Assembly: GCF_020564355.1 (NCBI RefSeq)
Contig: NZ_JAJCRR010000007.1
Location: forward strand, 138,455 to 202,454
Reading direction: 5' to 3'
Origin: Lachnospira pectinoschiza
GTDB taxonomy: Bacteria; Bacillota; Clostridia; Lachnospirales; Lachnospiraceae
DNA length: 64,000 nucleotides
The position numbers and the translations under genes were made by a program. The notes under the pieces were generated by a model. The model searched no databases. It was not told the DNA's origin and saw only the letters and a program-made list of their open reading frames with translations. Below, piece after piece: positions 5,132 to 54,379 of the stretch. How positions within the stretch are numbered: position 1 is the stretch's first letter; every line of letters begins with the position of its first letter.

Positions 5132-5160
5132 TTGAATCATGTGGAAAGCTGTAGTATAAT
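5132..5160 (+). promoter_or_regulatory. Promoter of the GH5 gene
   Basis: A -35 TTGAAT (5132-5137) and a perfect -10 TATAAT (5155-5160) are separated by 17 bp. It lies about 100 bp upstream of the GH5 start at 5258, so the hairpin repeat at 5196-5257 would be the mRNA leader. Confidence 0.75.
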
Positions 5161-5195
5161 TATTACTATAGTGAACGTAATACTAAAAATAAACA

Positions 5196-5257
5196 GCAGA
5201 CTTTTGCGAATTTTTTATCGCCTCTTCGCAACAAGTTGCTCAGAAATGAGGAATACC
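5196..5257 (+). repeat. Hairpin-RBS repeat, copy A (short form)
   Basis: Carries the 3' half of the dispersed element: a TCGCCTCTTC segment, the palindrome GCAACAAGTTGC, then CTCAGAAATGAGGA immediately before the start codon. The GAGGA is the ribosome binding site. The same segment precedes murG, where upstream translation of both copies reads TSCSEMR. Confidence 0.8.
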
Positions 5258-6895
5258 ATGGATAAAAAGAAAAAGATACTGATTGGAGCAGTGCTTACGG
5301 TGGTTATTCTGCTGGCAGGTGTGATGGCAGGATTTTTGATTGCCAATGCAGAAAAAAAAGGAAGCAGTCCGCAAAATGTTGAAAACGGTGCGCTGACAAA
5401 TAACGAAAGACCTGTTTACGATGAAAAGGAAAGCACCGAAAGTCCAAAGAATCAGGAGGCACAGGCGCAGTTTACGCCGGGCAATGCATGGGAATCGGAC
5501 GGGCGGAAGTACATACAGTATGAGTTAAATATTTTCAGTACCGGCAAAAAGAATATTGAAAGCTGGAAGATTACATTTCCGGCGGGAAGCGGTACAGTGA
5601 TGGAGCAGAGCTGGAACTGCGGCGTTGAGAGCAGTACGGCAGAGGACGGAACGGTTTCATTTACATTATCGCCGGTGGACTATAACCGGGAGATTCCGGC
5701 GGGAGAACATACGCAGGGAATCGGTTTTATCATCAGCCGGACGGAAAACTATGAATTAAAGGCGTATCAACTGGAAGCTGTGATTGAAGGCGTTGCGGTT
5801 ACGGTAACAGATGACGGACAGTCAGGGGACAGTCTGGCAGAGCAGGGGCAGGATAACCATCAGAGTGATGACAGTCAGACAGGTATTATAAAGGAAGAAA
5901 CACAAAATGGACAGACAGGCGGCTCATCAGACGGTTCGCAAAATTCAGACAGTTCAGGTAAATCCGGCGGTTCATCGGGAACGGGGGGCAGTCCACGGCC
6001 GGCATCAGGCGGACTGCGGGTTTCCGGTACAATGCTTACCGATGCTTCCGGCAATGCCGTACAGCTTCGCGGTGTCAGCACACACGGACTGGCGTGGTTT
6101 CCTGAATATGTCAATAAAGAAGCATTTGAAACACTGCGGGACGACTGGGGCGCCAATGTAGTGCGCCTTGCGATGTATACCGAAGAATATGGCGGATACT
6201 GTAACGGCGGTGATAAGGAAGCTTTAAAACAGCTCATTGATGACGGTGTATCCTATGCGACAGAGCTTGGCATGTACGTCATTATTGACTGGCATATTTT
6301 AAGTGACGGGAATCCGAACCGGAATAAGGAAGAAGCCAAAGCATTTTTCTCAGAAATGGCAGATAAATATGCAGGGCATAACAATGTAATTTATGAAATC
6401 TGCAATGAACCGCAGAATTCTGACTGGAACGGCCAGATTAAACCGTATGCCGAGGACGTGATTTCCTGTATCCGGCAGTATGACAGCAGTGCGCTGATAC
6501 TGGTGGGAACGAATACATGGTCGCAGGATATTGACGCAGTAGCGGGAAATGAGCTGGATGACGATAATGTGATGTACGTGCTTCATTTTTACGCGGGCAC
6601 ACATAAAGCTTCCCTGCGCAGTAAACTGGAGTCTGCGTTAAATGCTGGTGTGCCGGTATTTGTCAGTGAATGCAGTATTTGTGATGCTTCGGGAAACGGC
6701 GGCATTGATTATGATTCGGCACAAAGCTGGCTGGATTTGTTAAATGACAGAGGTGTCAGCTTCTTAGCATGGAGTCTTTCCAATAAAAATGAAACATCGG
6801 CACTCATCCAGCCGGGCTGTAGTAAAACCGGCGGCTGGACAGAAGATGATTTATCGGAAACCGGACGGTGGTTTAGAAAAGCAATACAGGGATAA
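5258..6895 (+). CDS. Membrane-anchored glycoside hydrolase family 5 endoglucanase with CBM-like domain
   Basis: A 545-residue cell-surface enzyme that probably cleaves beta-1,4-glucan or a related plant polysaccharide. An uncleaved signal or anchor helix (about 7-29) is followed by a beta-rich domain (about 60-180, with NCGVESS and GIGFIISR) resembling a family-2-type cellulose-binding module, a Gly/Ser/Asp linker, and the GH5 catalytic barrel (about 255-545). The acid/base Glu is in EICNEPQNS and the nucleophile Glu in PVFVSECS. The ATG at 5258 was preferred to an upstream in-frame start at 5105 because GAGGA sits directly before it and the extra N-terminus would only translate the repeat. 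Confidence 0.92.
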   Translation: MDKKKKILIGAVLTVVILLAGVMAGFLIANAEKKGSSPQNVENGALTNNERPVYDEKESTESPKNQEAQAQFTPGNAWESDGRKYIQYELNIFSTGKKNIESWKITFPAGSGTVMEQSWNCGVESSTAEDGTVSFTLSPVDYNREIPAGEHTQGIGFIISRTENYELKAYQLEAVIEGVAVTVTDDGQSGDSLAEQGQDNHQSDDSQTGIIKEETQNGQTGGSSDGSQNSDSSGKSGGSSGTGGSPRPASGGLRVSGTMLTDASGNAVQLRGVSTHGLAWFPEYVNKEAFETLRDDWGANVVRLAMYTEEYGGYCNGGDKEALKQLIDDGVSYATELGMYVIIDWHILSDGNPNRNKEEAKAFFSEMADKYAGHNNVIYEICNEPQNSDWNGQIKPYAEDVISCIRQYDSSALILVGTNTWSQDIDAVAGNELDDDNVMYVLHFYAGTHKASLRSKLESALNAGVPVFVSECSICDASGNGGIDYDSAQSWLDLLNDRGVSFLAWSLSNKNETSALIQPGCSKTGGWTEDDLSETGRWFRKAIQG

Positions 6896-10432: not shown

Positions 10433-11497
10433 TTACTTGGAATTTGCCGTAATCAGTTCCATGATTTTGCCGATAGCGTCATTCTGCTCGCTTAAAGCCA
10501 TGTTATTGACATAAGTCATGCGCTTCTGATACAGGTCGCGCACGGCCGCAAGCAGTGTTTCCGGTGTAATGTCTTCTTCCATTAAAACAGCGGAGTAGCC
10601 GTGTTTTTTAAAGGAGTTGGCATTTAAAATCTGGTCGCCGCGGCTTGCATTGGCAGAAAGCGGAATCAAAAGATTCGGCTTCTTTAAGGCAAGCAGTTCG
10701 CAGATTGCATTGGCACCGGCACGCGAAATGACAATATCGCTCATTGCAAATAAATCGCGCATTTCCTTGCTGATATATTCAAACTGGACATAGCCTTCTT
10801 TATTTTCAAAGCTTTTATCGGTTTTGCCCTTGCCGCACAGATGAACCACCTGGAAATCCTTTAACAGCTCCGGTAAAATGGCACGCACGGCATTGTTGAC
10901 CTTTACGGCGCCGGTGCTTCCGCCGACAACAAGAATAACCGGTTTTTCTGTGTTAAAATGACACAGATTCAGTCCGGCAAGTTTATTGCCCTGTAACAGT
11001 TCCTTCCGGATAGGAGAACCGGTAAGCACAGCTTTCTGCTGTGGGAGATACTGAACCGTTTCCGGGAAATTACAGCAAATTTTCGTTGCGGAACGCATGG
11101 CAATTTTATTGGCAAGTCCCGGTGTCATATCAGATTCGTGGATAATAACCGGAATCCGCTTATGTCCTGCCGCTAAAACAACCGGCACGGATACAAAACC
11201 GCCTTTGGAAAAGACGATATCCGGCTTGATTTTGCGCATCAGCGTCCTTGCCTGAAAATACCCTTTGAGAACGCGGAACGGGTCGGAAAGGTTTTTAAGG
11301 CTTTTGTAGCGTCTTAATTTTCCGGAAGAAATGCCGTAATACGGGATTTCAAGGTCTTCAATCAGCTGTTTTTCAATGCCGGTATAAGAACCGATGTAAA
11401 AAACTTCATATCCGGCTTCCTTTAAGCTCGGAAGCAGTGCAATATTCGGTGTAACGTGTCCGGCAGTACCGCCGCCGGTAAGTACAATCCGTTTCAT
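10433..11497 (-). CDS. murG: UDP-GlcNAc:undecaprenyl-PP-MurNAc-pentapeptide GlcNAc transferase
   Basis: This enzyme makes lipid II by adding GlcNAc to lipid I on the inner face of the membrane, the last cytoplasmic step of peptidoglycan synthesis. The 354-residue GT-B protein begins with the family motif TGGGTAGHVTPN; VFSKGGFVSVP and VVGGSTGA, then ISRAGANAICELLALKKPNLLIPL, match the MurG donor and acceptor sites. The ATG at 11497 was chosen because GAGGA lies before it; an upstream in-frame extension would only translate the hairpin repeat. It stands alone, away from the usual division cluster. Confidence 0.96.
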   Translation of the reverse strand: MKRIVLTGGGTAGHVTPNIALLPSLKEAGYEVFYIGSYTGIEKQLIEDLEIPYYGISSGKLRRYKSLKNLSDPFRVLKGYFQARTLMRKIKPDIVFSKGGFVSVPVVLAAGHKRIPVIIHESDMTPGLANKIAMRSATKICCNFPETVQYLPQQKAVLTGSPIRKELLQGNKLAGLNLCHFNTEKPVILVVGGSTGAVKVNNAVRAILPELLKDFQVVHLCGKGKTDKSFENKEGYVQFEYISKEMRDLFAMSDIVISRAGANAICELLALKKPNLLIPLSANASRGDQILNANSFKKHGYSAVLMEEDITPETLLAAVRDLYQKRMTYVNNMALSEQNDAIGKIMELITANSK

Positions 11498-11629
11498 AAT
11501 AATCCTCATTTCTGAGCAGCTTGTTGTAAAGAGGCGATGAGAAATTTGCGAAAGCGGTTTTTCATCTGCCATCATAGCTATTTGTTTTTGCTCATAAACA
11601 ATATAGCCAACGTCAAGCTACGCTTGCCG
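11498..11629 (-). repeat. Hairpin-RBS repeat, copy B (full form) before murG
   Basis: Read on the minus strand: GCAAGCGTAGCTTGAC, then hairpin 2 (GGCTATATTGTTT, loop ATGAGCA, AAAACAAATAGCT), GATGGCAGATGAAAAA and its returning arm TTTCTCATC, then ACAACAAGCTGCTCAGAAATGAGGA next to the murG ATG. It is close to copy F over most of its length. Confidence 0.85.
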
Positions 11630-11656
11630 TGTAAAAAATAAATAATCCGTTAAATA

Positions 11657-14074: not shown

Positions 14075-14806
14075 ATGAAGACACTGGGAATTTTAGGCGG
14101 AATGGGACCGATGGCGACTGCCTGTTTTATGGAACGGATAACCGCAATGACAGCGGCAGATACCGACCAGGAGCAGATACCGGTGATTGTATACAGCAAT
14201 ACACAGATTCCTGACAGAAGTGCGTATCTTTTAGACAGACCGCAGGCGGAAAATCCTTTGACGGCATTACGGCAGACGGCGCATTTTTTAGACGGTGCAT
14301 GTGATTATATTGCAATGCCGTGTGTGACAGCACATGCGTTTTATACGCAGATACAACAGGAACTTTCCCATGCCGTGCTTTTCAATATGGTTGAACTGAC
14401 GGTGCAGTCCTTAAAGGCACAGAACATAAAAAAAGCGGGACTGCTGGCAACGGACGGCACGATTGCAGGCGGTGTATTTAAAGAAAGTTTAAAAAATGCA
14501 GGAATCGAGAGTGTTCTGCCGGGTGCGCTGTCACAAAAAAGCCTTATGGCGCTGATTTACCGGATAAAAGCGGGAAAAGAGCCGGATATGGCGGCGTTTA
14601 ACCGCATTTTACAGGAACTCGTATCCGGCGGCGCAGAAAGAATCGTACTTGGCTGTACGGAAATTTCCATTTTAAATTTAAAAGAAAAATGTCCGTGTGC
14701 CGTACCGTATACAGACTGTATGGAACTGCTGGCGGAGGCGGCGGTGGCAGCGTGCGGCGGACAAGTCGCTCAGAAATGGAGGCAAATGCGAAAATCCATA
14801 AATTAA
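14075..14806 (+). CDS. Aspartate/glutamate racemase family protein
   Basis: A 243-residue cofactor-independent racemase that inverts an acidic amino acid through two cysteines. Both are present: MPCVTAH (first) and LGCTEI (second), with the N-terminal GILGGMGP. Aspartate is the likely substrate, supplying D-Asp for the cell wall, but this is inferred. SD GGAAGGAAAAG precedes the start. The last 15 or so codons (from GGQVAQKW) are encoded by the first unit of the hairpin-RBS repeat, so the C-terminus has apparently been rewritten by repeat insertion. Confidence 0.88.
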   Translation: MKTLGILGGMGPMATACFMERITAMTAADTDQEQIPVIVYSNTQIPDRSAYLLDRPQAENPLTALRQTAHFLDGACDYIAMPCVTAHAFYTQIQQELSHAVLFNMVELTVQSLKAQNIKKAGLLATDGTIAGGVFKESLKNAGIESVLPGALSQKSLMALIYRIKAGKEPDMAAFNRILQELVSGGAERIVLGCTEISILNLKEKCPCAVPYTDCMELLAEAAVAACGGQVAQKWRQMRKSIN

Positions 14807-15083
14807 AGATTTTCGCACATCAAGCGTAGCTTGATGTTTCACTTTGTGCCGCAGGCGTCACAAAGTCGTTTTATCGCAGAGCCAAATAAGATTTGGCTCG
14901 CGATTCTTCCAGCATTAAAATGCCTGCGGAATGAGGAAAATGCGAAAAATATGCTTGAGAGCATATTTTCACACGGAGATTTGTTTCTGAGCGAAAACAA
15001 ATCTCTCTGATTGCAGATGAGAAATCGCCTGCGCGAATTTCTCATCGCAGCTTCGCGACAAAGTCGCTTAGGAATGAGGTAGT
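14752..15083 (+). repeat. Hairpin-RBS repeat, composite copy C
   Basis: A train of hairpins: TGCGAAAAT/ATTTTCGCA, CATCAAGC/GCTTGATG (3-base loop), ACTTTGTG/CACAAAGT, GAGCCAAAT/ATTTGGCTC extended by ATCGC/GCGAT, AATATGCT/AGCATATT, GAGATTTGTTT/AAAACAAATCTC, GATGAGAAAT/ATTTCTCATC and GCGAC/GTCGC. CAGAAATGGAGG, GGAATGAGGA and AGGAATGAGG occur three times, the last serving as RBS of the next gene. It looks like nested or tandem units. No gene lies within it. Confidence 0.85.
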
Positions 15084-16592
15084 ATGAGAAATGTATTAGA
15101 ATATCTGGAAGCGGCATATCTGAAAGCACCGGAAAAGACGGCATATGCCAGTGAAACGGACAGCCTTACGTTCCGGCAGGTTTATATGCAGGCGCGGTCT
15201 GTCGGAACAGTGCTTTTAAAAGATGGATTGTATAAAAAGCCGGTGGTGGTTTTTATGGAAAAAAGCCCGCAGACGATTACTGCATTTTTAGGTGTGGTTT
15301 ATGCGGGGTGCTATTATGTGCCGGTTGATGAGGAAATGCCGTCTTACAGAATGGAACTGATTTTTAAGACACTTTCGCCGCAGGCGGTAATCTGCGATAA
15401 AGCAACAACAGATAGGCTTTACAAAATGGGCTATCAGGGACAAGTATATTTATATGAGCAGATATCAGCTACACCGCAGGATACGAAAGCACTGTCGGCA
15501 GTCCGTGAAAAAAGCATTGATACCGATGCACTGTATATTGTATTCACATCGGGTTCAACAGGCATCCCAAAAGGTGTTGTAGCCTGCCACCGTTCAGTCA
15601 TTGATTATATTGAAAATCTTTCAGCAGTGTTGCAGGTATCGGAGGATACCGTGTTTGGCAATCAGGCACCGCTGTATGTCGATGCCTGTTTAAAGGAAAT
15701 ATATCCGACCTTAAAATTTGCGGCAACGGCATACCTGATACCAAAGCAGTTATTTATGTTTCCGGTGAAGCTTGTTGAATTTATCAATGCTCATCAGATT
15801 AATACCATCTGCTGGGTTGTTCCGGCACTGACGATGATATCGGGACTGGGCGCATTTGAAAAAGCAGTGCCGTCATCTTTAAAGACGATTGCATTCGGCA
15901 GTGAAGTGTTTCCGGCAAGACAGCTTGCACTCTGGAGAAAATATGTCCCCAATGCACGGTACATCAATCTGTACGGACCGACGGAAGCAACCGGAATGTC
16001 CTGCTACTATGTTGTGGACAGGGAATTTAAGGAAGACGAAGTGATTCCGATTGGCAGACCGTTTCCCAATACCGGCATTCTGCTTTTAAATGAAGATGGA
16101 AAAGAAGTAACGCAGGGAGAAAAGGGCGAAATCTGTATCCGTGGAACGGCGGTGACCATGGGATATTACCGCCAGCCGGAAAAGACTGCCGGGAATTTTG
16201 TGCAGAATCCGCTCAATAAGGACTATCCGGAGATTATTTATAAGACCGGAGATTTGGGTTATTATAATGACCGCGGAGAATTAATGTTTGCTTCCCGTAA
16301 GGATTATCAGATTAAACATATGGGACATCGTATTGAACTTGGTGAAATTGAAGGCAGTGTAAACTGCATGGAAAAAATCGCAGGCGGCTGTTGTATTTAT
16401 GATGAGGAAAAGAAAAAAATTGTATTATTTTATGCGGGAGAAGTACAGCCGGCAGAGGTGCTTGCCTTTTTAAAGGAGCGTCTTCCACGCTACATGGTGC
16501 CGGGCGTTTTACGACAGGTGGATAGATTGCCGCTGACCTTAAACGGCAAAGTCGACCGCATGAAATTAAAAGAGATGTATGCTGGAGAATAG
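15084..16592 (+). CDS. DltA-like adenylation enzyme (amino acid--carrier protein ligase)
   Basis: A 502-residue ANL-superfamily enzyme expected to activate an amino acid with ATP and load it on the adjacent carrier protein. Visible motifs are the P-loop TSGSTGIPKGV, GPTEAT, TGDLG and the C-terminal lysine in LNGKVDR. Gene order (adenylation, carrier, MBOAT, SGNH) matches the D-alanylation system for teichoic acids. However, the stretch that reads FCGEV in D-alanine-specific DltA is FGSEV here (about 271-276), so the substrate may not be D-alanine. The repeat's GAATGAGG provides the RBS. Confidence 0.88.
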   Translation: MRNVLEYLEAAYLKAPEKTAYASETDSLTFRQVYMQARSVGTVLLKDGLYKKPVVVFMEKSPQTITAFLGVVYAGCYYVPVDEEMPSYRMELIFKTLSPQAVICDKATTDRLYKMGYQGQVYLYEQISATPQDTKALSAVREKSIDTDALYIVFTSGSTGIPKGVVACHRSVIDYIENLSAVLQVSEDTVFGNQAPLYVDACLKEIYPTLKFAATAYLIPKQLFMFPVKLVEFINAHQINTICWVVPALTMISGLGAFEKAVPSSLKTIAFGSEVFPARQLALWRKYVPNARYINLYGPTEATGMSCYYVVDREFKEDEVIPIGRPFPNTGILLLNEDGKEVTQGEKGEICIRGTAVTMGYYRQPEKTAGNFVQNPLNKDYPEIIYKTGDLGYYNDRGELMFASRKDYQIKHMGHRIELGEIEGSVNCMEKIAGGCCIYDEEKKKIVLFYAGEVQPAEVLAFLKERLPRYMVPGVLRQVDRLPLTLNGKVDRMKLKEMYAGE

Positions 16593-20746: not shown

Positions 20747-20797
20747 TCGCAAAAGCTTAAAATAAGACGAATATCCCCGATATTTGACGAACGATTT

Positions 20798-20834
20798 ATC
20801 GCAGAAATGCTTTTCAATTTAGCATTTCTGCGAT
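20798..20834 (+). terminator. Strong hairpin after mtnN
   Basis: ATCGCAGAAATGCT (20798-20811) pairs perfectly with AGCATTTCTGCGAT (20821-20834) over a 9-base loop. No long T run follows, so termination is likely but not certain. The arm contains CAGAAATG, the core of the hairpin-RBS repeat. Confidence 0.6.
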
Positions 20835-20885
20835 ATTATTATGTTACGTAATTGAAAGGCAGTATGGCTTATGGGAAAGGAGTGT

Positions 20886-20941
20886 AAACAAGCCTTAAAT
20901 GAAAGCTTGTTTGCAACAAGTTGTTCAGAAATGGGGGAAGT
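20886..20941 (+). repeat. Hairpin-RBS repeat, copy D
   Basis: AAACAAGC...GCTTGTTT forms an 8-bp stem, followed by GCAACAAGTTGTTCAGAAATGGGGGA directly before the ATG at 20942. The 3' box and the small palindrome match copy A; the upstream hairpin is different. Confidence 0.75.
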
Positions 20942-21529
20942 ATGAAAATAATAGTAGTGTTGATGGCAGTGGTGTTTATGGCGGGGATGGCTATCTGGCT
21001 GTTTTTATTTAAAAATTGCTATGAGATGATACAGGATATCCGCAGCGGAACAAGAAAAGTGCCGGTGATCCGCAAGGCAGTCGACAAGTATGATGACTGC
21101 TGTAAGCTGGAGATTGCGGTGAATAACACCGAAGTTTTTGTGGAAAAGATTATCGAAAATGAGAAAATTTGTGGACTGCGCATGAAAGCATGGCAGCGGA
21201 TTGCGGGAATGGTCAAATATGGGATTGCTTTACTGGGAATATTTTCGGCGGTTCTTTTTAAGGGAAATACAGATGAAGTCTATATCTGTGCGGCGGTCGC
21301 GGCGATGTGCTGTGTGTCCCTGCATTTTATGGACTGTATGGCAGATGTGGACGGCTATTTAAAGGATACGGTCGTGGAACTGGTGGATTATCTGGAAAAC
21401 AGTGGCGCCGTGCGCAGTGAAGCGGGAAAAGTGATGGCTGCAAAATTAAAAGGGAAAGCCGCCAGTGAGTTTATGAAAATGAACAGAAGATATGATAAAA
21501 TCTGTGCGGCAAAAGGACATTTTTCTTGA
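20942..21529 (+). CDS. Membrane protein of unknown function
   Basis: A 195-residue protein with an N-terminal transmembrane helix (about 2-22), a Lys/Glu-rich stretch, two more hydrophobic segments (about 90-108 and 113-130), and a soluble Lys/Ala-rich C-terminus. No family is recognised. The ATG at 20942 was chosen because the GGGGGA of the repeat is its SD; an upstream in-frame TTG at 20921 lies inside the repeat. It stands alone between mtnN and a dehydrogenase. Confidence 0.65.
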   Translation: MKIIVVLMAVVFMAGMAIWLFLFKNCYEMIQDIRSGTRKVPVIRKAVDKYDDCCKLEIAVNNTEVFVEKIIENEKICGLRMKAWQRIAGMVKYGIALLGIFSAVLFKGNTDEVYICAAVAAMCCVSLHFMDCMADVDGYLKDTVVELVDYLENSGAVRSEAGKVMAAKLKGKAASEFMKMNRRYDKICAAKGHFS

Positions 21530-33225: not shown

Positions 33226-33417
33226 ATTACTAATATTTAATAAAATTTATTGTTTGTTTTGATAAAAATAAGACAATTTGTGATATGATAAATTTGGTAT
33301 TTATCTATTTCACACACGCATTTTGTGTCCGTGCGCACAGAACACAAATTCATTATGCGGACCGGAATCATATAGGCTGCAGAATATAGCTAAAATAGAC
33401 GTAGGGCGTGCGCAGAA

Positions 33418-34971
33418 ATGAAGATGACAATGAAACTGAAAAATAAATTAATATTAACTTTTTGCATTATGAGTATTCTTCCGATGGTTCTGTGCGGACT
33501 GGTTATCTGCGGCATGTATAAAATCCATGCACAGAATATGTACCAGACCTATGAGATAGACAGTCAGACATTTCTGATTGATTTTTACTCGCCGATGGAG
33601 CTGATGGGAAAGATTACGGAAAATATTTATGACGATATCCGTGAAATTGCAGAGGAAAATCCGGAAAAGTTTAACGATGAAAGCTATCTGGAGCATATTG
33701 ATTACAGACTGTCAGAGAAGCTCTCAGAGCTGGTTGTCCGTAAAAACGGGGTCTATACATATCAGTCAGAGGTGCTTAAAGGAAAAAATATTGATGAGCT
33801 GCTTCCGGCATATGATGAAGATGAGAACATTTGTGATGTGGCACTTTATAAGGGCGGCGACTACCAGACACTGGTAAAGCAGATTAATTTTTCCGACAGT
33901 CAGGGCAATGAATACAGTGTATCCATTCTGACATCATTAAATCAGATTGTACCGCAGCTGAAAATGTTTGCAATCGAACTGTTTGCGGCAGTTTTTCTGA
34001 TACTAGTGATTACAAGCCTGATACTGAATCTGTGGATATATCGTTCCGTTGTGACACCGCTTAATAAGCTGAAGCTGGCGACACATAATATACAGGCGGG
34101 TAATTTTGATTTTGAAATGCCGAATGTCCCGAAAAATGAAATCGGTGATGTGTGCCGTGATTTTGAGGAAATGCGTGTCATTTTAAAGCAGTCGTCCGAA
34201 GACAAGATTCGTTCCGATATGGAAGAAAAAGAGCTGATCCGCAATATTTCACATGATTTAAAGACACCGCTGACGGCGATTAAAGGTTATGTGGAAGGGA
34301 TTCAGGACGGTATTGCGGATACACCGCAGAAGCAGGAAAAGTATTTGCGTACAATTGCCAATAAGGTCAATGATATGGACAAGCTGATTGATGAGCTAAC
34401 GATTTATTCCAAGTTAGATACCAACCGTGTGCCGTATTCCTTTGCAAAGATTCCGATTAAGGGATATTTTGATGACTGCTGTGAGGAGATTAAGATTGAC
34501 TTAGAAGCGCAGGGCATTGATCTGGATTACCGTTGTTATGCGGGGGATGATGTGTTTATCGTTGCAGATGCGGAACAGTTAAAGCGTGTCATCAACAATA
34601 TTGTCAGCAACTCCGTAAAATACCGCGACGAAAGCCGGAAAGAAAAAATTACAATTGCCGTTTATGACGAGGGTGATTATGTACACATTCTGCTGGCAGA
34701 CAACGGAAAAGGCATTGGGGCAAGAGAACTGCCGCGTATTTTTGAACGTTTTTACAGAACGGATTCATCAAGAAACAGCAGGCAGGGCGGAAGTGGTATC
34801 GGACTTGCCATTGTTAAAAAAATTATTGAAGACCACAAGGGAAAAATCTGGGCAGAAAGTGTGGAGGGCGAAGGAACAGCCATGCATATCAATCTGTTAA
34901 AATATAAAGATAATTCCCATTATTGTATAGAAGATAAAAGTGGAAAAAAGAGTGCAAAGGGACTCAGATAA
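33418..34971 (+). CDS. Sensor histidine kinase
   Basis: A 517-residue transmembrane kinase: two transmembrane helices (about 9-30 and 185-207) flank an extracytoplasmic sensing region; a HAMP linker follows (about 208-262). The phospho-acceptor His is H279 in NISHDLKTPLTAIKGY, and the ATP domain has NIVSNSVKY, LADNGKGIG, FERFYRTDSS and GGSGIGLAIVKKI. It pairs with the response regulator 40 bp downstream. The start could be 33418, 33424 or 33430; 33418 is kept. Just upstream is GCGTGCGCAGAAATGAAG, similar to the 3' end of the hairpin-RBS repeats. The stimulus is unknown. Confidence 0.93.
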   Translation: MKMTMKLKNKLILTFCIMSILPMVLCGLVICGMYKIHAQNMYQTYEIDSQTFLIDFYSPMELMGKITENIYDDIREIAEENPEKFNDESYLEHIDYRLSEKLSELVVRKNGVYTYQSEVLKGKNIDELLPAYDEDENICDVALYKGGDYQTLVKQINFSDSQGNEYSVSILTSLNQIVPQLKMFAIELFAAVFLILVITSLILNLWIYRSVVTPLNKLKLATHNIQAGNFDFEMPNVPKNEIGDVCRDFEEMRVILKQSSEDKIRSDMEEKELIRNISHDLKTPLTAIKGYVEGIQDGIADTPQKQEKYLRTIANKVNDMDKLIDELTIYSKLDTNRVPYSFAKIPIKGYFDDCCEEIKIDLEAQGIDLDYRCYAGDDVFIVADAEQLKRVINNIVSNSVKYRDESRKEKITIAVYDEGDYVHILLADNGKGIGARELPRIFERFYRTDSSRNSRQGGSGIGLAIVKKIIEDHKGKIWAESVEGEGTAMHINLLKYKDNSHYCIEDKSGKKSAKGLR

Positions 34972-37192: not shown

Positions 37193-38368
37193 ATGACAAA
37201 GGTAGATATTATTTCAGGATTTTTAGGTGCAGGAAAAACCACTTTAATCAGTAAATTATTAAAAGAAGCATTAAAGGACGAGCAGGTCGTTCTGATAGAA
37301 AACGAATTTGGCGAAATCGGTATTGACGGTGGATTTTTAAAGGATTCCGGCGTGGAAATCAGGGAAATGAATTCCGGCTGTATCTGCTGTTCACTGGTAG
37401 GCGACTTCGGTACATCTTTAAAGGAAGTTGTTGACAAGTACCATCCGGACAGAATCATCATCGAGCCGTCAGGTGTCGGCAAGCTCTCCGATGTCATTAA
37501 GGCAGTAAAGGACCTTCATATCGAAAATGAAATCCGCTTAAACAGTGCATCAACTGTAGCAGATGCTTCTAAAGTAAAAGTATACATGAAGAACTTCGGT
37601 GAATTCTTCAACAACCAGATTGAACATGCAGGCACAATCATTTTAAGCCGTACACAGAATGTCAGCGAAGACAAGTTAAAGAAGGCTATTGAACTGATTC
37701 GTACAGTCAATGCCAATGCACATATTATTACGACACCTTGGGATGACTTAGAGGGTACACAGATTTTAGGTGCCATGGAAAACGTAACGAACCTCGAACT
37801 GGAAATGCTTGCAGAAGCAGCTGAAAAAGCGCATGAAGAACATGAACACGAGCATCATCACCATCATGACGGCGAGGAGTGCTGCTGTGGTCATCATCAC
37901 GATGAGGACGAACACGACCACCATCATGACCACGATGAGGACGAACACGAACATCACCATCACGGAAATGACGAGGAATGTGGCTGCGGACATGACCATG
38001 ACCACGAGGAACATGAACATCATCATCACGACCATGATGGCGAATGTGGCTGCGGACATGACCATCACCATGAAGGACATCATCATGCAGATGACGTATT
38101 CTCAAGCTGGGGTACAGAAACACCGAATAAATACGACAAAGAAACACTTGAAGACATCTTAAAGAAGCTTGCCAATACAGAAGAATACGGTAAGATTCTG
38201 CGTTCAAAAGGTATGCTTCCTTGCACGGACGGCACATGGATGTATTTTGATTTAGTACCGGGAGAATACGAAATCCGTGACGGCAAGGCAGATTTTACAG
38301 GAAGAATCTGTGTCATCGGTGCCGAATTAAAAGAAGATGCGTTAAAAACATTATTTGAAATCGCCTAA
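37193..38368 (+). CDS. CobW/COG0523 GTPase metallochaperone with His-rich domain
   Basis: A 391-residue G3E GTPase that probably delivers a transition metal. P-loop GFLGAGKTT (9-17), the metal-site CxCC (CICC, 63-66), and ENEFGEIGIDGG are canonical. A central region (about 212-300) is extremely rich in His, Asp, Glu and Cys, with repeated Cys-x-Cys-Gly-His units, and should bind several metal ions. The C-terminal CobW_C-like domain follows. It is cotranscribed with a related GTPase 44 bp downstream. Zinc or nickel are the most likely metals; the sequence does not decide. Confidence 0.92.
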   Translation: MTKVDIISGFLGAGKTTLISKLLKEALKDEQVVLIENEFGEIGIDGGFLKDSGVEIREMNSGCICCSLVGDFGTSLKEVVDKYHPDRIIIEPSGVGKLSDVIKAVKDLHIENEIRLNSASTVADASKVKVYMKNFGEFFNNQIEHAGTIILSRTQNVSEDKLKKAIELIRTVNANAHIITTPWDDLEGTQILGAMENVTNLELEMLAEAAEKAHEEHEHEHHHHHDGEECCCGHHHDEDEHDHHHDHDEDEHEHHHHGNDEECGCGHDHDHEEHEHHHHDHDGECGCGHDHHHEGHHHADDVFSSWGTETPNKYDKETLEDILKKLANTEEYGKILRSKGMLPCTDGTWMYFDLVPGEYEIRDGKADFTGRICVIGAELKEDALKTLFEIA

Positions 38369-41558: not shown

Positions 41559-42362
41559 ATGAAAAAATATCTGGCAGAATTTCTCGGCACATTTATCCTG
41601 ACATTTATGGTATGCGGGGCAGTCTCATTCACGGGTGGATATGCGGGGTATCTCGGTGTTGTCGGCATTGCGCTGACAGCCGGTTTTACGGTGGCGGTGC
41701 TGTTATACGTTTTTGGCACGGTATCGGGAGCACATTGTAATCCGGCAGTGTCGGCGGGCATGCTGATTGCCGGAAGGCTCAGTGTCGTGGATTTTATGGG
41801 TTATGTGGTATCACAGGTGTTTGGCGCACTTGCAGCGGCATTTGCCCTGTATGGATTGTCAAAGTCATTTGACGCACAGGTAATATCCCAGTATCAGTCC
41901 TATGGATATGATTTGGTCGGACTTGGCACAAATGGTTATGCAGATACATCAGCTTTCTTAAAAATTAATGTCTGGGGTGCATTTGTTACGGAGCTGCTCT
42001 TGACATTTGTCTTTGTGCTGGCATTTCTCTGTGTGACGGCGAAAACAGCGTACAAAAATGTGGCAGGGCTGGTAGCCGGTATGGCATTTTGCATGGCAGA
42101 ACTGTTTGGACTGGTACTTACAGGCGCAGGAATCAATCCGGCAAAAAGCTTTGGTACAGCCTTTGTAAAGGCAGTTTTTGGTGATGTAAAGGCTCTTTCA
42201 CAGGTCTGGGTATTTCTTGTGGCACCGCTTGCGGGCGGCCTGCTTGCGGGACTTTGCAGCCTTTATTTTTACGGAAAGCCAAGAAAAAAGATTTCCCGGA
42301 AGGAAACCGATGAAAAAGAAGCGCTGGAGCTTTTGGAAAAAGAAGAAACAACGGAACGGTAA
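41559..42362 (+). CDS. MIP/aquaporin family channel
   Basis: A 267-residue channel with six transmembrane helices and two NPA boxes, SGAHCNPAVSAG and GINPAKSFG. Water or small neutral solutes would pass; the second half lacks an obvious Asp after NPA of the glycerol-facilitator type, so an aquaporin or AqpZ-like protein is a reasonable guess. The C-terminal tail is Lys/Glu-rich. ATG at 41559; 41541 is a less likely start. Its position right after spmAB raises a possible link with water movement in sporulation. Confidence 0.9.
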   Translation: MKKYLAEFLGTFILTFMVCGAVSFTGGYAGYLGVVGIALTAGFTVAVLLYVFGTVSGAHCNPAVSAGMLIAGRLSVVDFMGYVVSQVFGALAAAFALYGLSKSFDAQVISQYQSYGYDLVGLGTNGYADTSAFLKINVWGAFVTELLLTFVFVLAFLCVTAKTAYKNVAGLVAGMAFCMAELFGLVLTGAGINPAKSFGTAFVKAVFGDVKALSQVWVFLVAPLAGGLLAGLCSLYFYGKPRKKISRKETDEKEALELLEKEETTER

Positions 42363-42373
42363 TAGGATAAATC

Positions 42374-42404
42374 AGGACAGATACGGTGTATCTGTCCTTT
42401 TTTC
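42374..42404 (+). terminator. Terminator after the aquaporin gene
   Basis: AGGACAGATAC pairs with GTATCTGTCCT (11 bp, 3-base loop) and is followed by a run of T. Confidence 0.92.
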
Positions 42405-42408
42405 ATGC

Positions 42409-42492
42409 AGGGATTTGTTTCTGAGCGAAAACAAATCTCTCTGATGGCAGATGAAAAATCTCCTGTGTCACAAAGTCATTCAGAAATATGGA
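42409..42492 (+). repeat. Hairpin-RBS repeat, copy E (orphan)
   Basis: GGGATTTGTTT, loop CTGAGCG, AAAACAAATCTC; then GATGGCAGATGAAAAA and TCACAAAGTCATTCAGAAATATGG. It is nearly identical to part of copy C but no gene starts after it on this strand; the next gene, DUF2508, runs in the opposite direction. Confidence 0.8.
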
Positions 42493-42590
42493 TTAGTGTA
42501 CAAAATTCCTATGATTATAATATACTCTAAAAATATAAGAATAAGTATTGACAAATAGATTCAAAAGGTGTATTATACGTATACAATACA

Positions 42591-53221: not shown

Positions 53222-53261
53222 TATTTATGCTATATTCTCCATAGTTGTGCTGCATTTAAAA

Positions 53262-53386
53262 GCAGTAACTTGATGTTGGCTATATTGTTTTTGGGCGAAA
53301 GCAGATAGCCCTGATGGCAGATGAAAAACGGGCGGAGTTTTTTCATGGATGCATTGTGACAGGTTCGCTCAGGAATGGAGAATTTG
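53262..53386 (+). repeat. Hairpin-RBS repeat, copy F
   Basis: AACTTGATGTTGGCTATATTGTTT, loop TTGGGCG, AAAGCAGATAGCC, then TGATGGCAGATGAAAAA and TTTTTTCAT, then GTGACAGGTTCGCTCAGGAATGGAG immediately upstream of the SCP2 gene. Closely similar to copy B before murG, split here into its parts. Confidence 0.85.
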
Positions 53387-54379
53387 ATGAAAGTTAATAT
53401 TTATTATGGCGGCAGGGGTATGGTAGATGACCCTACAATTTTTGTAATGGGTAAAATCCAGGAAGTATTAGAAGAACTCAATGTAAATGTTACAAGATAC
53501 AATCTCTACGAGATGAAAAATACAATTACGACATTGTCACAGACAGTCACGGAAGCAGATGCAGTCGTACTGGCAACAACAGTTGAATGGCTTGGAATGG
53601 GCGGATATATGCAGAGTTTTCTGGATTCCTGCTGGCTGTATGGGGATAAGGACCAGATTGGAAAGGTCTACATGTTCCCGGTTGTTATGGCAAAGACATA
53701 TGGCGAACGTGAGGTTTCGCTTGCTCTTGCAAATTCGTGGGAAATTATCGGCGGACGGGTAGCACCGGCGCTGAATGCCTATGTAGATGATACGACGGAA
53801 TTTGAATTTAATTCAGATTATGTGGGGATTATCGAAAATTATGCGGAAACAATCTACAGAACAGTTTCACAGAAAAGAAAAGGACTGCCGACAAGCAGCC
53901 AGGCAATTAAAAATAATGTTATTAAAGATACGATTAATTTTACACCACAGGAAAGTGAACAGCTGTCAAAGTATGCATCAGATGATGAATTTGTACAGAC
54001 ACAGAAAAAAGATATTGAATCACTTGCAAGCATATACAAAGAACTGCTGACCGATGAGAAAAACGGCGGGGATCATTATTATATTGATTCTTTTATGCAG
54101 CATGTTAATCCGCAGTGCCGTGTTAACAGTTCGTATATGCTGACAATTACAGATAAGAACAAGAATATTCTGATTGATGCGTCAGGCGGACGGGTCAATG
54201 TATCATTTGGTGAAAATCCGGCAGCAGATGTAATCTGCAGAATGGATAAAGATACTTTTGATAAATTGATTGACGGAAGAAGTTCATTCCACAAAGCCTT
54301 TATGACAGGTGAGATGACAGCAAGAGGTAATTTAAAAACACTTCGTATGTTAGATGAATTATTTACTTTTACCGCCTAG
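53387..54379 (+). CDS. Flavodoxin-like reductase fused to an SCP2 lipid-binding domain
   Basis: A 330-residue protein. The first half is a flavodoxin/NADPH-FMN-reductase-like Rossmann domain (MKVNIYYGGRGMVDD, then VVLATTVEWLGMGGYMQSFLD), the last 110 residues an SCP2-type domain (NSSYMLTITDKNKNILIDASG, FMTGEMTARGNLKTLRMLDELF), which binds lipids in a pocket. The combination suggests redox chemistry on a lipophilic substrate, but this is inferred. The ATG at 53387 uses the repeat's GGAG as SD; an in-frame start at 53375 lies in the repeat. Confidence 0.85.
   Translation: MKVNIYYGGRGMVDDPTIFVMGKIQEVLEELNVNVTRYNLYEMKNTITTLSQTVTEADAVVLATTVEWLGMGGYMQSFLDSCWLYGDKDQIGKVYMFPVVMAKTYGEREVSLALANSWEIIGGRVAPALNAYVDDTTEFEFNSDYVGIIENYAETIYRTVSQKRKGLPTSSQAIKNNVIKDTINFTPQESEQLSKYASDDEFVQTQKKDIESLASIYKELLTDEKNGGDHYYIDSFMQHVNPQCRVNSSYMLTITDKNKNILIDASGGRVNVSFGENPAADVICRMDKDTFDKLIDGRSSFHKAFMTGEMTARGNLKTLRMLDELFTFTA

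Follow-up and report, generated by a model that had tools for sequence, protein, structure and literature searches.

In a 64,000-nucleotide stretch of the Lachnospira pectinoschiza genome (hereafter the window), several unrelated genes are preceded by what appears to be one and the same hairpin-rich repeat, the 3' end of which lies at the Shine–Dalgarno (SD) sequence of the gene behind it. The question raised by this arrangement is whether the repeat is there to control translation, or whether it is a mobile sequence that has come to rest at translation-initiation sites. The overall picture is that this Lachnospiraceae repeat family is real and mobile. In this regard, the explanation that we consider likely is a short non-autonomous mobile element of ~137 nt, without terminal inverted repeats, which targets translation-initiation sites; as part of the same explanation, it would go in behind the SD of a host gene and ahead of the start codon, pointing the same way as the gene. 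Direct support comes from the family itself, its fold, its position before genes, the duplication of the target, the presence or absence of copies in sister genomes and the lack of inverted ends.

A repeat family before start codons

The initial annotation had described six dispersed copies of a structured repeat before the start codons of unrelated genes. All six are found at those positions in the window sequence, and all six are recovered (each with E ≤ 9.2e-7) by an independent covariance model, R1, built from 33 copies in relatives and none from the window (Table 1). Five of the six stand directly before a gene, the products being a GH5 protein with CBM2, MurG, an AMP-binding enzyme, a 195-aa protein and an SCP2/FMN_red protein. 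Behind the decayed sixth copy, the list of open reading frames holds none of ≥100 aa that begins before 42973. A further R1 match at 33268-33431 (E = 0.27) was left out of the window count. The 12-base core by itself is within chance in the window, with 11 matches at ≤2 mismatches against 6.5 expected and 9 of 100 shuffles as high, and the case for a family in the window is made by the whole element.

The region 14752-15083, originally taken as one copy, does contain the element, but 14750-15083 reads as a stack of three generations at one site, in which the 3' remnant of an old copy is followed by one unit of the second subfamily and one of the first. The Asp/Glu racemase ORF (14075-14806) enters this stack, such that its final codons and stop are element sequence. 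Elsewhere in the window, degenerate tandem repeats rich in His, Asp and Glu codons lie at 37842-38044 inside the ORF 37193-38368, and perhaps encode a metal-binding stretch.

Table 1. Copies and parts of copies of the element in the window, with the genes behind them and the basis of each assignment.
Feature	Position	Strand	Parts present	Gene or context	Basis
5'-shortened copy	5206..5257	+	Rest of hairpin 3, hairpin 4, 3' end, SD GAGG 5248-5251	GH5/CBM2 gene, start 5258	Sequence; Pfam; R1 match 5141-5259 +, E = 2.4e-8
murG copy	11498..11639	-	Hairpins 2-4, 3' end, SD; hairpin 1 replaced by an extra small hairpin	Directly before murG (glycosyltransferase 28), start codon at 11497	Sequence; Pfam; R1 match 11496-11639 -, E = 5.5e-22
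3' remnant of an older copy	14750..14785	+	3' remnant with SD (CAGAAATGGAGG)	Within the 3' end of the Asp/Glu racemase ORF	Reading; 19-nt blastn match 14760-14778
Second-subfamily unit	14786..14939	+	Hairpin-2 loop CCGCAGGC, 3' end GCCTGCGG, right SD AATGAGG		Reading; blastn match 14843-15079 covers part
First-subfamily unit	14940..15083	+	Hairpin-2 loop TTTCTGAGCG, 3' end CGCTTAGGAA, SD GAGG 15076-15079	AMP-binding gene at 15084	Sequence; Pfam; R1 match 14932-15087 +, E = 2.6e-32
Short copy	20886..20941	+	Hairpin 4 and 3' end, SD GGGG	ORF of 195 aa, start 20942, without Pfam match	Sequence; R1 match 20790-20944 +, E = 9.2e-7, 5' part poorly aligned
Decayed copy	42399..42499	+	Hairpin 2 intact, SD lost (AATATGG)		Sequence; R1 match 42357-42499 +, E = 2.3e-11
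SCP2 copy	53262..53386	+	Hairpins 2-4, 3' end, SD GGAG	SCP2/FMN_red gene, start 53387	Sequence; Pfam; R1 match 53260-53388 +, E = 1.5e-13

The MurG protein of the window shares 90% identity with the one from Lachnospira sp. RGIG8490 (L001, genome G001), in which murG has no element upstream, yet AGAAATGGAG is present. Its identity to the proteins of L002-L015, from genomes mostly labelled Lachnospira or Eubacterium, is 75-83%. Two records of uncultured Bacteroides sp. (L013, L022) have a MurG 73-75% identical to that of the window, and the Bacteroides label looks wrong.

Genome-wide counts were made in the genomes of relatives, not in the window's own genome. At E ≤ 0.01, a 141-nt query has matches in 11 of 17 related genomes, G003 and G017 contributing 27 and 32, respectively; at E ≤ 1e-3, a second-subfamily query matches 13 of 22 genomes from the genus, one of them G003. 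A covariance search had been proposed at the outset, and with R1 at E ≤ 1e-4 it finds the family in at least 45 of 299 sampled Lachnospiraceae genomes, a count that includes G003 and G017 (both of which donated copies to the model) and that is a lower bound, since up to 10 candidates per genome were scored under strict filters. In a sample of 398 genomes across the phylum, scored with R1 at up to seven candidates per genome, only the reference genome G003 is positive.

The repeat had not been recognised as a described family, and the searches made here agree. No family of Rfam release 15 exceeds its gathering score in the window; across seven loci of relatives, the Rfam matches at E ≤ 1 are one SRP RNA adjoining an element and two chance-level matches that overlap the element of L117, both far below cut-off (25.1 bits against 48, and 20.5 bits against 57). 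Literature searches, with subscription journals mostly outside their coverage, found no publication on this Lachnospiraceae repeat. One element query gave no match in phage and plasmid records, and two hairpin-2 patterns gave no exact match in viral contigs. In G017, a large bacterial SRP RNA (L141 1118-1381, 177.8 bits) and a full copy of the element are ~180 bases apart.

The position before genes is best seen in G025, where R1 finds 47 copies at E ≤ 1e-3 in 1.38 Mb. Of the best 42 of these (E ≤ 6e-8), 38 run up to a start codon (34 ATG, 2 GTG and 2 TTG, in ORFs of ≥60 aa, shorter ones being allowed at a contig end), as against 1 of 42 at the opposite end on the opposite strand and 19% of positions drawn at random (20,000); the suspected enrichment at start codons is borne out. 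Copies of the family sample inspected by eye follow the same pattern, with 20 of 22 leading to ATG, one to GTG and one (L282) into a second copy.

Fold and ends of the element

Full copies, of ~137 nt, contain four hairpins together with a pairing between the loop of hairpin 2 and the 3' end, and compensatory changes are seen. The order in a complete copy is left SD and spacer, hairpins 1-4, 3' end (for example CTCAGAA or CTCCGG), right SD and start codon. Hairpin 1 (for example GTGTGAAAAATCA...TGATTTTTCACAC) begins at the left junction, and is followed by hairpin 2 (GGCTATTTG...CAAATAGCC), hairpin 3 (GATGAGAAACCGC...GCGGATTTCTCATC) and hairpin 4 (GCGACAAGTCGC). In place of the modular plan with optional upstream hairpins that was originally drawn, the complete element has all four hairpins and the loop pairing, and shorter copies look like decayed ones.

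Across 33 aligned copies, the fold that includes the pairing between loop 2 and the 3' end has 95.2% of its cells paired, against 86.3 ± 0.5% in shuffled and 37-44% in slid versions, and it contains 124 double-change cells against 38.6 ± 5.0 in shuffles (0 of 500 as high). The alternative fold, in which hairpin 4 replaces the loop pairing, has 94.5% of cells paired and 123 double-change cells; the two structures use common bases and may alternate. In this alignment, A1, the helix between loop 2 and the 3' end shows double changes at only one of its seven pairs (13 sequences), and the pairing is therefore argued mainly from the comparison of subfamilies, in which loop and 3' end occur as TTTCTGAGCG/CGCTCAGAAA, CCGGAGCGT/ACGCTCCGG, CCGCAGGCAC/GTGCCTGCGG and CCGAAGCGT/ACGCTTCGG. 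Over 65 copies (66 rows minus one without a recognisable loop) the longest such helix has a mean of 9.18 bp, compared with 6.59 ± 0.27 when loops and ends are re-paired between copies and 5.22 ± 0.12 when the loop letters are shuffled, and it reaches ≥8 bp in 53 of the 65. By contrast with these pairings, the GNRA-type hairpin CTCA-GAAA-TGAG of the initial annotation fails as a conserved SD hairpin, having 73.5% of its cells paired against 73.8% in shuffles and no double change in the 33 copies.

Terminal inverted repeats are absent, the match between ends being 3.74 against 4.07 in shuffles (73 copies). With a G+C of 0.467 in 73 full copies and 0.426 in the window, the element is not AT-rich relative to the window. 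Of 72 full copies, 57 open with ATG, GTG or TTG and then AA or GA. Two candidate features of the left end were rejected. A conserved small ORF from the left SD is not seen, as frames vary, lengths run from 3 codons to past the printed stretch and early stops are frequent; nor is the left arm of hairpin 1 a copy of the first codons of the target, with 3.81 against 3.72 of 8 bases agreeing in 67 copies and 100 of 1000 re-pairings as high. In some copies of the set of 57 of 72 (full copies such as L147 and L141), a small ORF from the left SD ends across the start codon of the gene.

Target duplication, empty sites and decay

The left and right flanks of a copy resemble each other. Over 87 copies, counting both members of orthologous copies in sister genomes, the longest common stretch has a mean of 7.95 nt, against 5.90 ± 0.18 in re-paired flanks (highest of 300, 6.38); over 28 copies of the family sample it is 7.18 nt against 5.53 ± 0.29 (highest of 1000, 6.64), a result diluted by four rows (L301, L302, L305, L306) that were taken from the wrong strand. 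Of 72 full copies, 62 have an SD-like 4-mer among the final 14 nt before the element and ten have none on that side; in sequence lying further upstream the count is 16 of 72. The 6-nt spacer also agrees copy by copy, at 3.63 of its bases compared with 3.11 after re-pairing (none of 1000 re-pairings as high); codons 2-4 show no such match (100 of 1000 re-pairings as high).

Further evidence comes from G003 and G025, which are sister genomes with 90-97% identity over matched stretches, one paralogue excepted. From 14 gap events between them, of which L119 and L364 are one site and six were dropped (L348, L350 and L354 as unclean or deletions; one of L238, one of L239, and L351 as other than the element), there result seven clean sites at which G003 carries the element and G025 lacks it: L116/L216, L364/L324, L171/L203, L234/L205, L238/L343, L239/L224 and L363/L330. 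The pattern would be the same had the element been lost from G025 by precise excision rather than gained by G003. A start codon is present in all seven empty sites, as is a stretch resembling an SD, that of L205 being weak. At L363/L330, AAAAGGTGAATAGTATGGAAAAT occurs once in the empty site and twice in the full one, the duplication being at least 15 and at most 23 nt long, a range due to short homologies. Similarly, GGAAATGGGGAATA stands on both sides of the element at L239/L224 and GAGGAATATTGTGA at L238/L343; the flanks of L234/L205 match only partly, and the empty sites L216 and L324 already carry the 3' remnant of an older copy. A separate difference is found at L343 of G025, where a 73-nt insertion with a hairpin (AACAGTTCAG...CTGAACTGTT), absent from L238 of G003, is not of this family and is perhaps another small repeat.

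The duplicated stretch contains the SD, and measures about 9-14 nt where it can be read and 15-23 nt at one site, a variability that is unusual for a classical transposase. These observations revise the proposal that the repeat supplies the SD of the gene behind it. From the left-flank SD, the spacer match and the presence of an SD in the empty sites, it follows that the gene-side SD is mainly the gene's own, duplicated; the part of the proposal that stands is that the bases just before the right SD (CAGAA or CCGG) come from the element.

Shortened copies mostly have no left SD, an SD-like 4-mer being found in 11 of 34, of which a few are complete copies misbinned. Moreover, from their sequences L348/L325 reads as a left-side deletion after insertion and L354/L346 as an internal deletion. 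On both counts, 5'-shortening was rejected as a mark of retrotransposition. At the 18 sites common to G003 and G025, the element diverges by 7.5% against 3.8% in the flanks, and nine full-length pairs differ at 0, 1, 1, 2, 2, 6, 14, 19 and 37 sites. In the pair with 19 differences (L209/L192) these are confined to the first half, and the pair with 37 (L200/L118) has two different subfamilies at one site, patterns which point to part exchange or to repeated insertion at one site. Constraint on shared copies was set aside as evidence, as conservation is seen in only five of the nine full-length pairs and not in the whole set.

Explanations and known repeats

A mobile element of this kind would act as follows. 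Insertion would duplicate a short, SD-containing stretch of the target, with one copy of the SD left of the element and the other before the gene, such that the ribosome-binding site would be kept; the gene behind an inserted element can probably still be read, its ribosome-binding site being copied. The feature shared by copies would be the fold, not inverted ends, and we infer that an enzyme supplied in trans may recognise the folded single strand (RNA or ssDNA) and open the target by a stagger around the SD. The fold would leave the SD about equally open, and insertions would be tolerated; old copies would decay via deletion and part exchange.

Four mobiliser families (RVT_1, Y1_Tnp, IS110 transposase and Cas1) were sought, and each is missing from several copy-rich genomes, most of the assemblies being MAGs of unstated completeness in which a single absence is weak evidence. 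RVT_1 is found in 9 of 26 genomes, with nothing at E ≤ 10 in G003, G025, G017, G005 and G002 and only E = 0.19 in G008. Y1_Tnp is found in 13 of 26, among them G003, G025, G005 and G012, with none at E ≤ 1e-4 in G017, G002, G008 and G013, where the element query has 32, 13, 6 and 8 matches, respectively. The IS110 transposase is present in G025, G005, G012 and others and absent from G003, G017, G008 and G013; Cas1 is present in G025, G012 and others and absent from G003, G017, G008, G013, G005 and G002. No element was found in the fetched flanks of Y1 or RT genes, and no autonomous copy with cargo came to light, either when 40 loci and the window were scanned narrowly for hairpin 1 or in the surroundings of the fetched RT/Y1 genes.

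These results bear directly on three other accounts of how copies spread. The initial annotation had considered a REP-like element spread by a transposase, and of this the mobile spread holds; a REP/BIME-type repeat that depends for its movement on a Y1 (RAYT/IS200-like) transposase, in favour of which stand hairpins, many copies per genome and the Y1 genes of G003, G025, G005 and G012, is nevertheless disfavoured as highly improbable, given the four copy-holding genomes without Y1, the empty flanks of the fetched Y1 and RT genes and the presence of a target duplication. A SINE-like retroelement, its RNA copied by a reverse transcriptase at a nicked target, would account for an RNA-like fold with a loop-to-3'-end pairing, for duplications of variable size and for the numerous 5'-shortened copies that keep their 3' end. 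It is very unlikely in view of the RVT_1 results above, and the shortened copies, mostly without a left SD, fit later deletion. Template switching in replication or repair at short homologies would dispense with a dedicated enzyme: the 5' end of the element resembles a gene start and its 3' end an SD, so that switching templates twice would both copy the element and double the intervening stretch. Junctions that fall in short homologies (for example L363), the variable duplication length, the exchange of parts between copies such as L209/L192 and the lack of any tested mobiliser family common to the copy-rich genomes all suit this account, which we regard as unlikely because it does not require a conserved fold and because the left arms of L300 and L239 are unlike a start codon, yet a left SD is present.

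A different kind of explanation is that the repeat is a cis-acting translational regulator whose fold, chiefly the loop-2 pairing beside the SD, controls the downstream gene, copies being kept for that reason. Compensatory changes that preserve the fold, copies directly before genes, the five of nine full-length G003/G025 pairs that differ at 0-2 of 130-141 sites, and the bases shared by hairpin 4 and the loop pairing, which could alternate, are all in keeping with regulation. Against it, the downstream genes are unrelated, the sites of the element differ between sister genomes, and the other four pairs differ at 6, 14, 19 and 37 sites, the 18 shared pairs together diverging more than their flanks. 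In nested folds of 52 copies, a model that excludes the pseudoknot, the computed probability that the SD is unpaired is 0.39 with the element and 0.47 in a stand-in empty site (p = 0.23), which is not a significant change in openness; with the letters of the element shuffled it falls to 0.26 (p = 0.0035). In these models the element fold looks closed on itself and tolerant for the SD. Regulation is therefore rather unlikely as the reason why copies are kept, although it is compatible with mobility and may hold on top of it.

If the mobile-element explanation is right, the repeat may, as a tentative and on balance doubtful extension, represent a new class of bacterial mobile element, defined by a fold (RNA or ssDNA), which homes to translation-initiation sites, restores the SD by duplicating its target and is mobilised by an enzyme or process that has yet to be connected with small repeats of bacteria; it would be reshaping the 5' leaders of numerous Lachnospiraceae genes. 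The element enters a gene at its most sensitive noncoding position, where copying of the SD seems to be what makes it tolerated. It raises the question of which agent mobilises a folded element of 137 nt that lacks inverted ends, provides in gut commensals a natural set of full and empty alleles for studying the effects of leaders on translation, and accounts for hairpin-rich leaders in Lachnospiraceae genomes that can be mistaken for riboswitch candidates.

Comparison with known repeats is by description. Of the features of MITEs, the element has the target site duplication, but neither the terminal inverted repeats nor the AT-richness. REP/BIME sequences are, like it, dispersed palindromes thought to be moved in trans, in their case with RAYT (PMC3733652), but are described as palindromic units of 20-40 bp that carry a GTAG or CGTC tag and lie for the most part behind coding regions (PMC3733652), whereas the element is ~137 nt long, lies before genes and has a target duplication; no GTAG or CGTC tag at a hairpin foot was spotted at its left ends in an uncounted inspection by eye. 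The TAACTGA repeats of Beggiatoaceae share the many copies, the orientation toward start codons and the position directly upstream (PMC4679880). They consist, however, of tandem heptamers lying over the place where an SD would be expected, and only ~10% of cases have one (PMC4679880), in contrast to a folded element with a duplicated SD. BOX of Streptococcus pneumoniae is, according to its description, modular and hairpin-rich, with 125 copies in one genome and target duplications, some copies forming ORFs (PMC3049150), and is alike in modularity, hairpins, copy number and target duplication; it differs in having terminal inverted repeats and in favouring sites between convergent genes, where BOX, RUP and SPRITE are all over-represented (PMC3049150), instead of sites before start codons. 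Closest in kind, as far as these descriptions go, is YPAL/RU-2 of Yersinia, a 168 bp mobile repeat with internal, not terminal, inverted repeats, variable target duplications of 3-26 bp, known filled and empty sites and an ORF that runs through it (PMC2229807). In other words, both are small and mobile, with internal inverted repeats, variable target duplication and filled and empty sites, and the difference lies in the target, which in Yersinia spans or adjoins a dyad symmetry (PMC2229807) and in the Lachnospiraceae is the SD.
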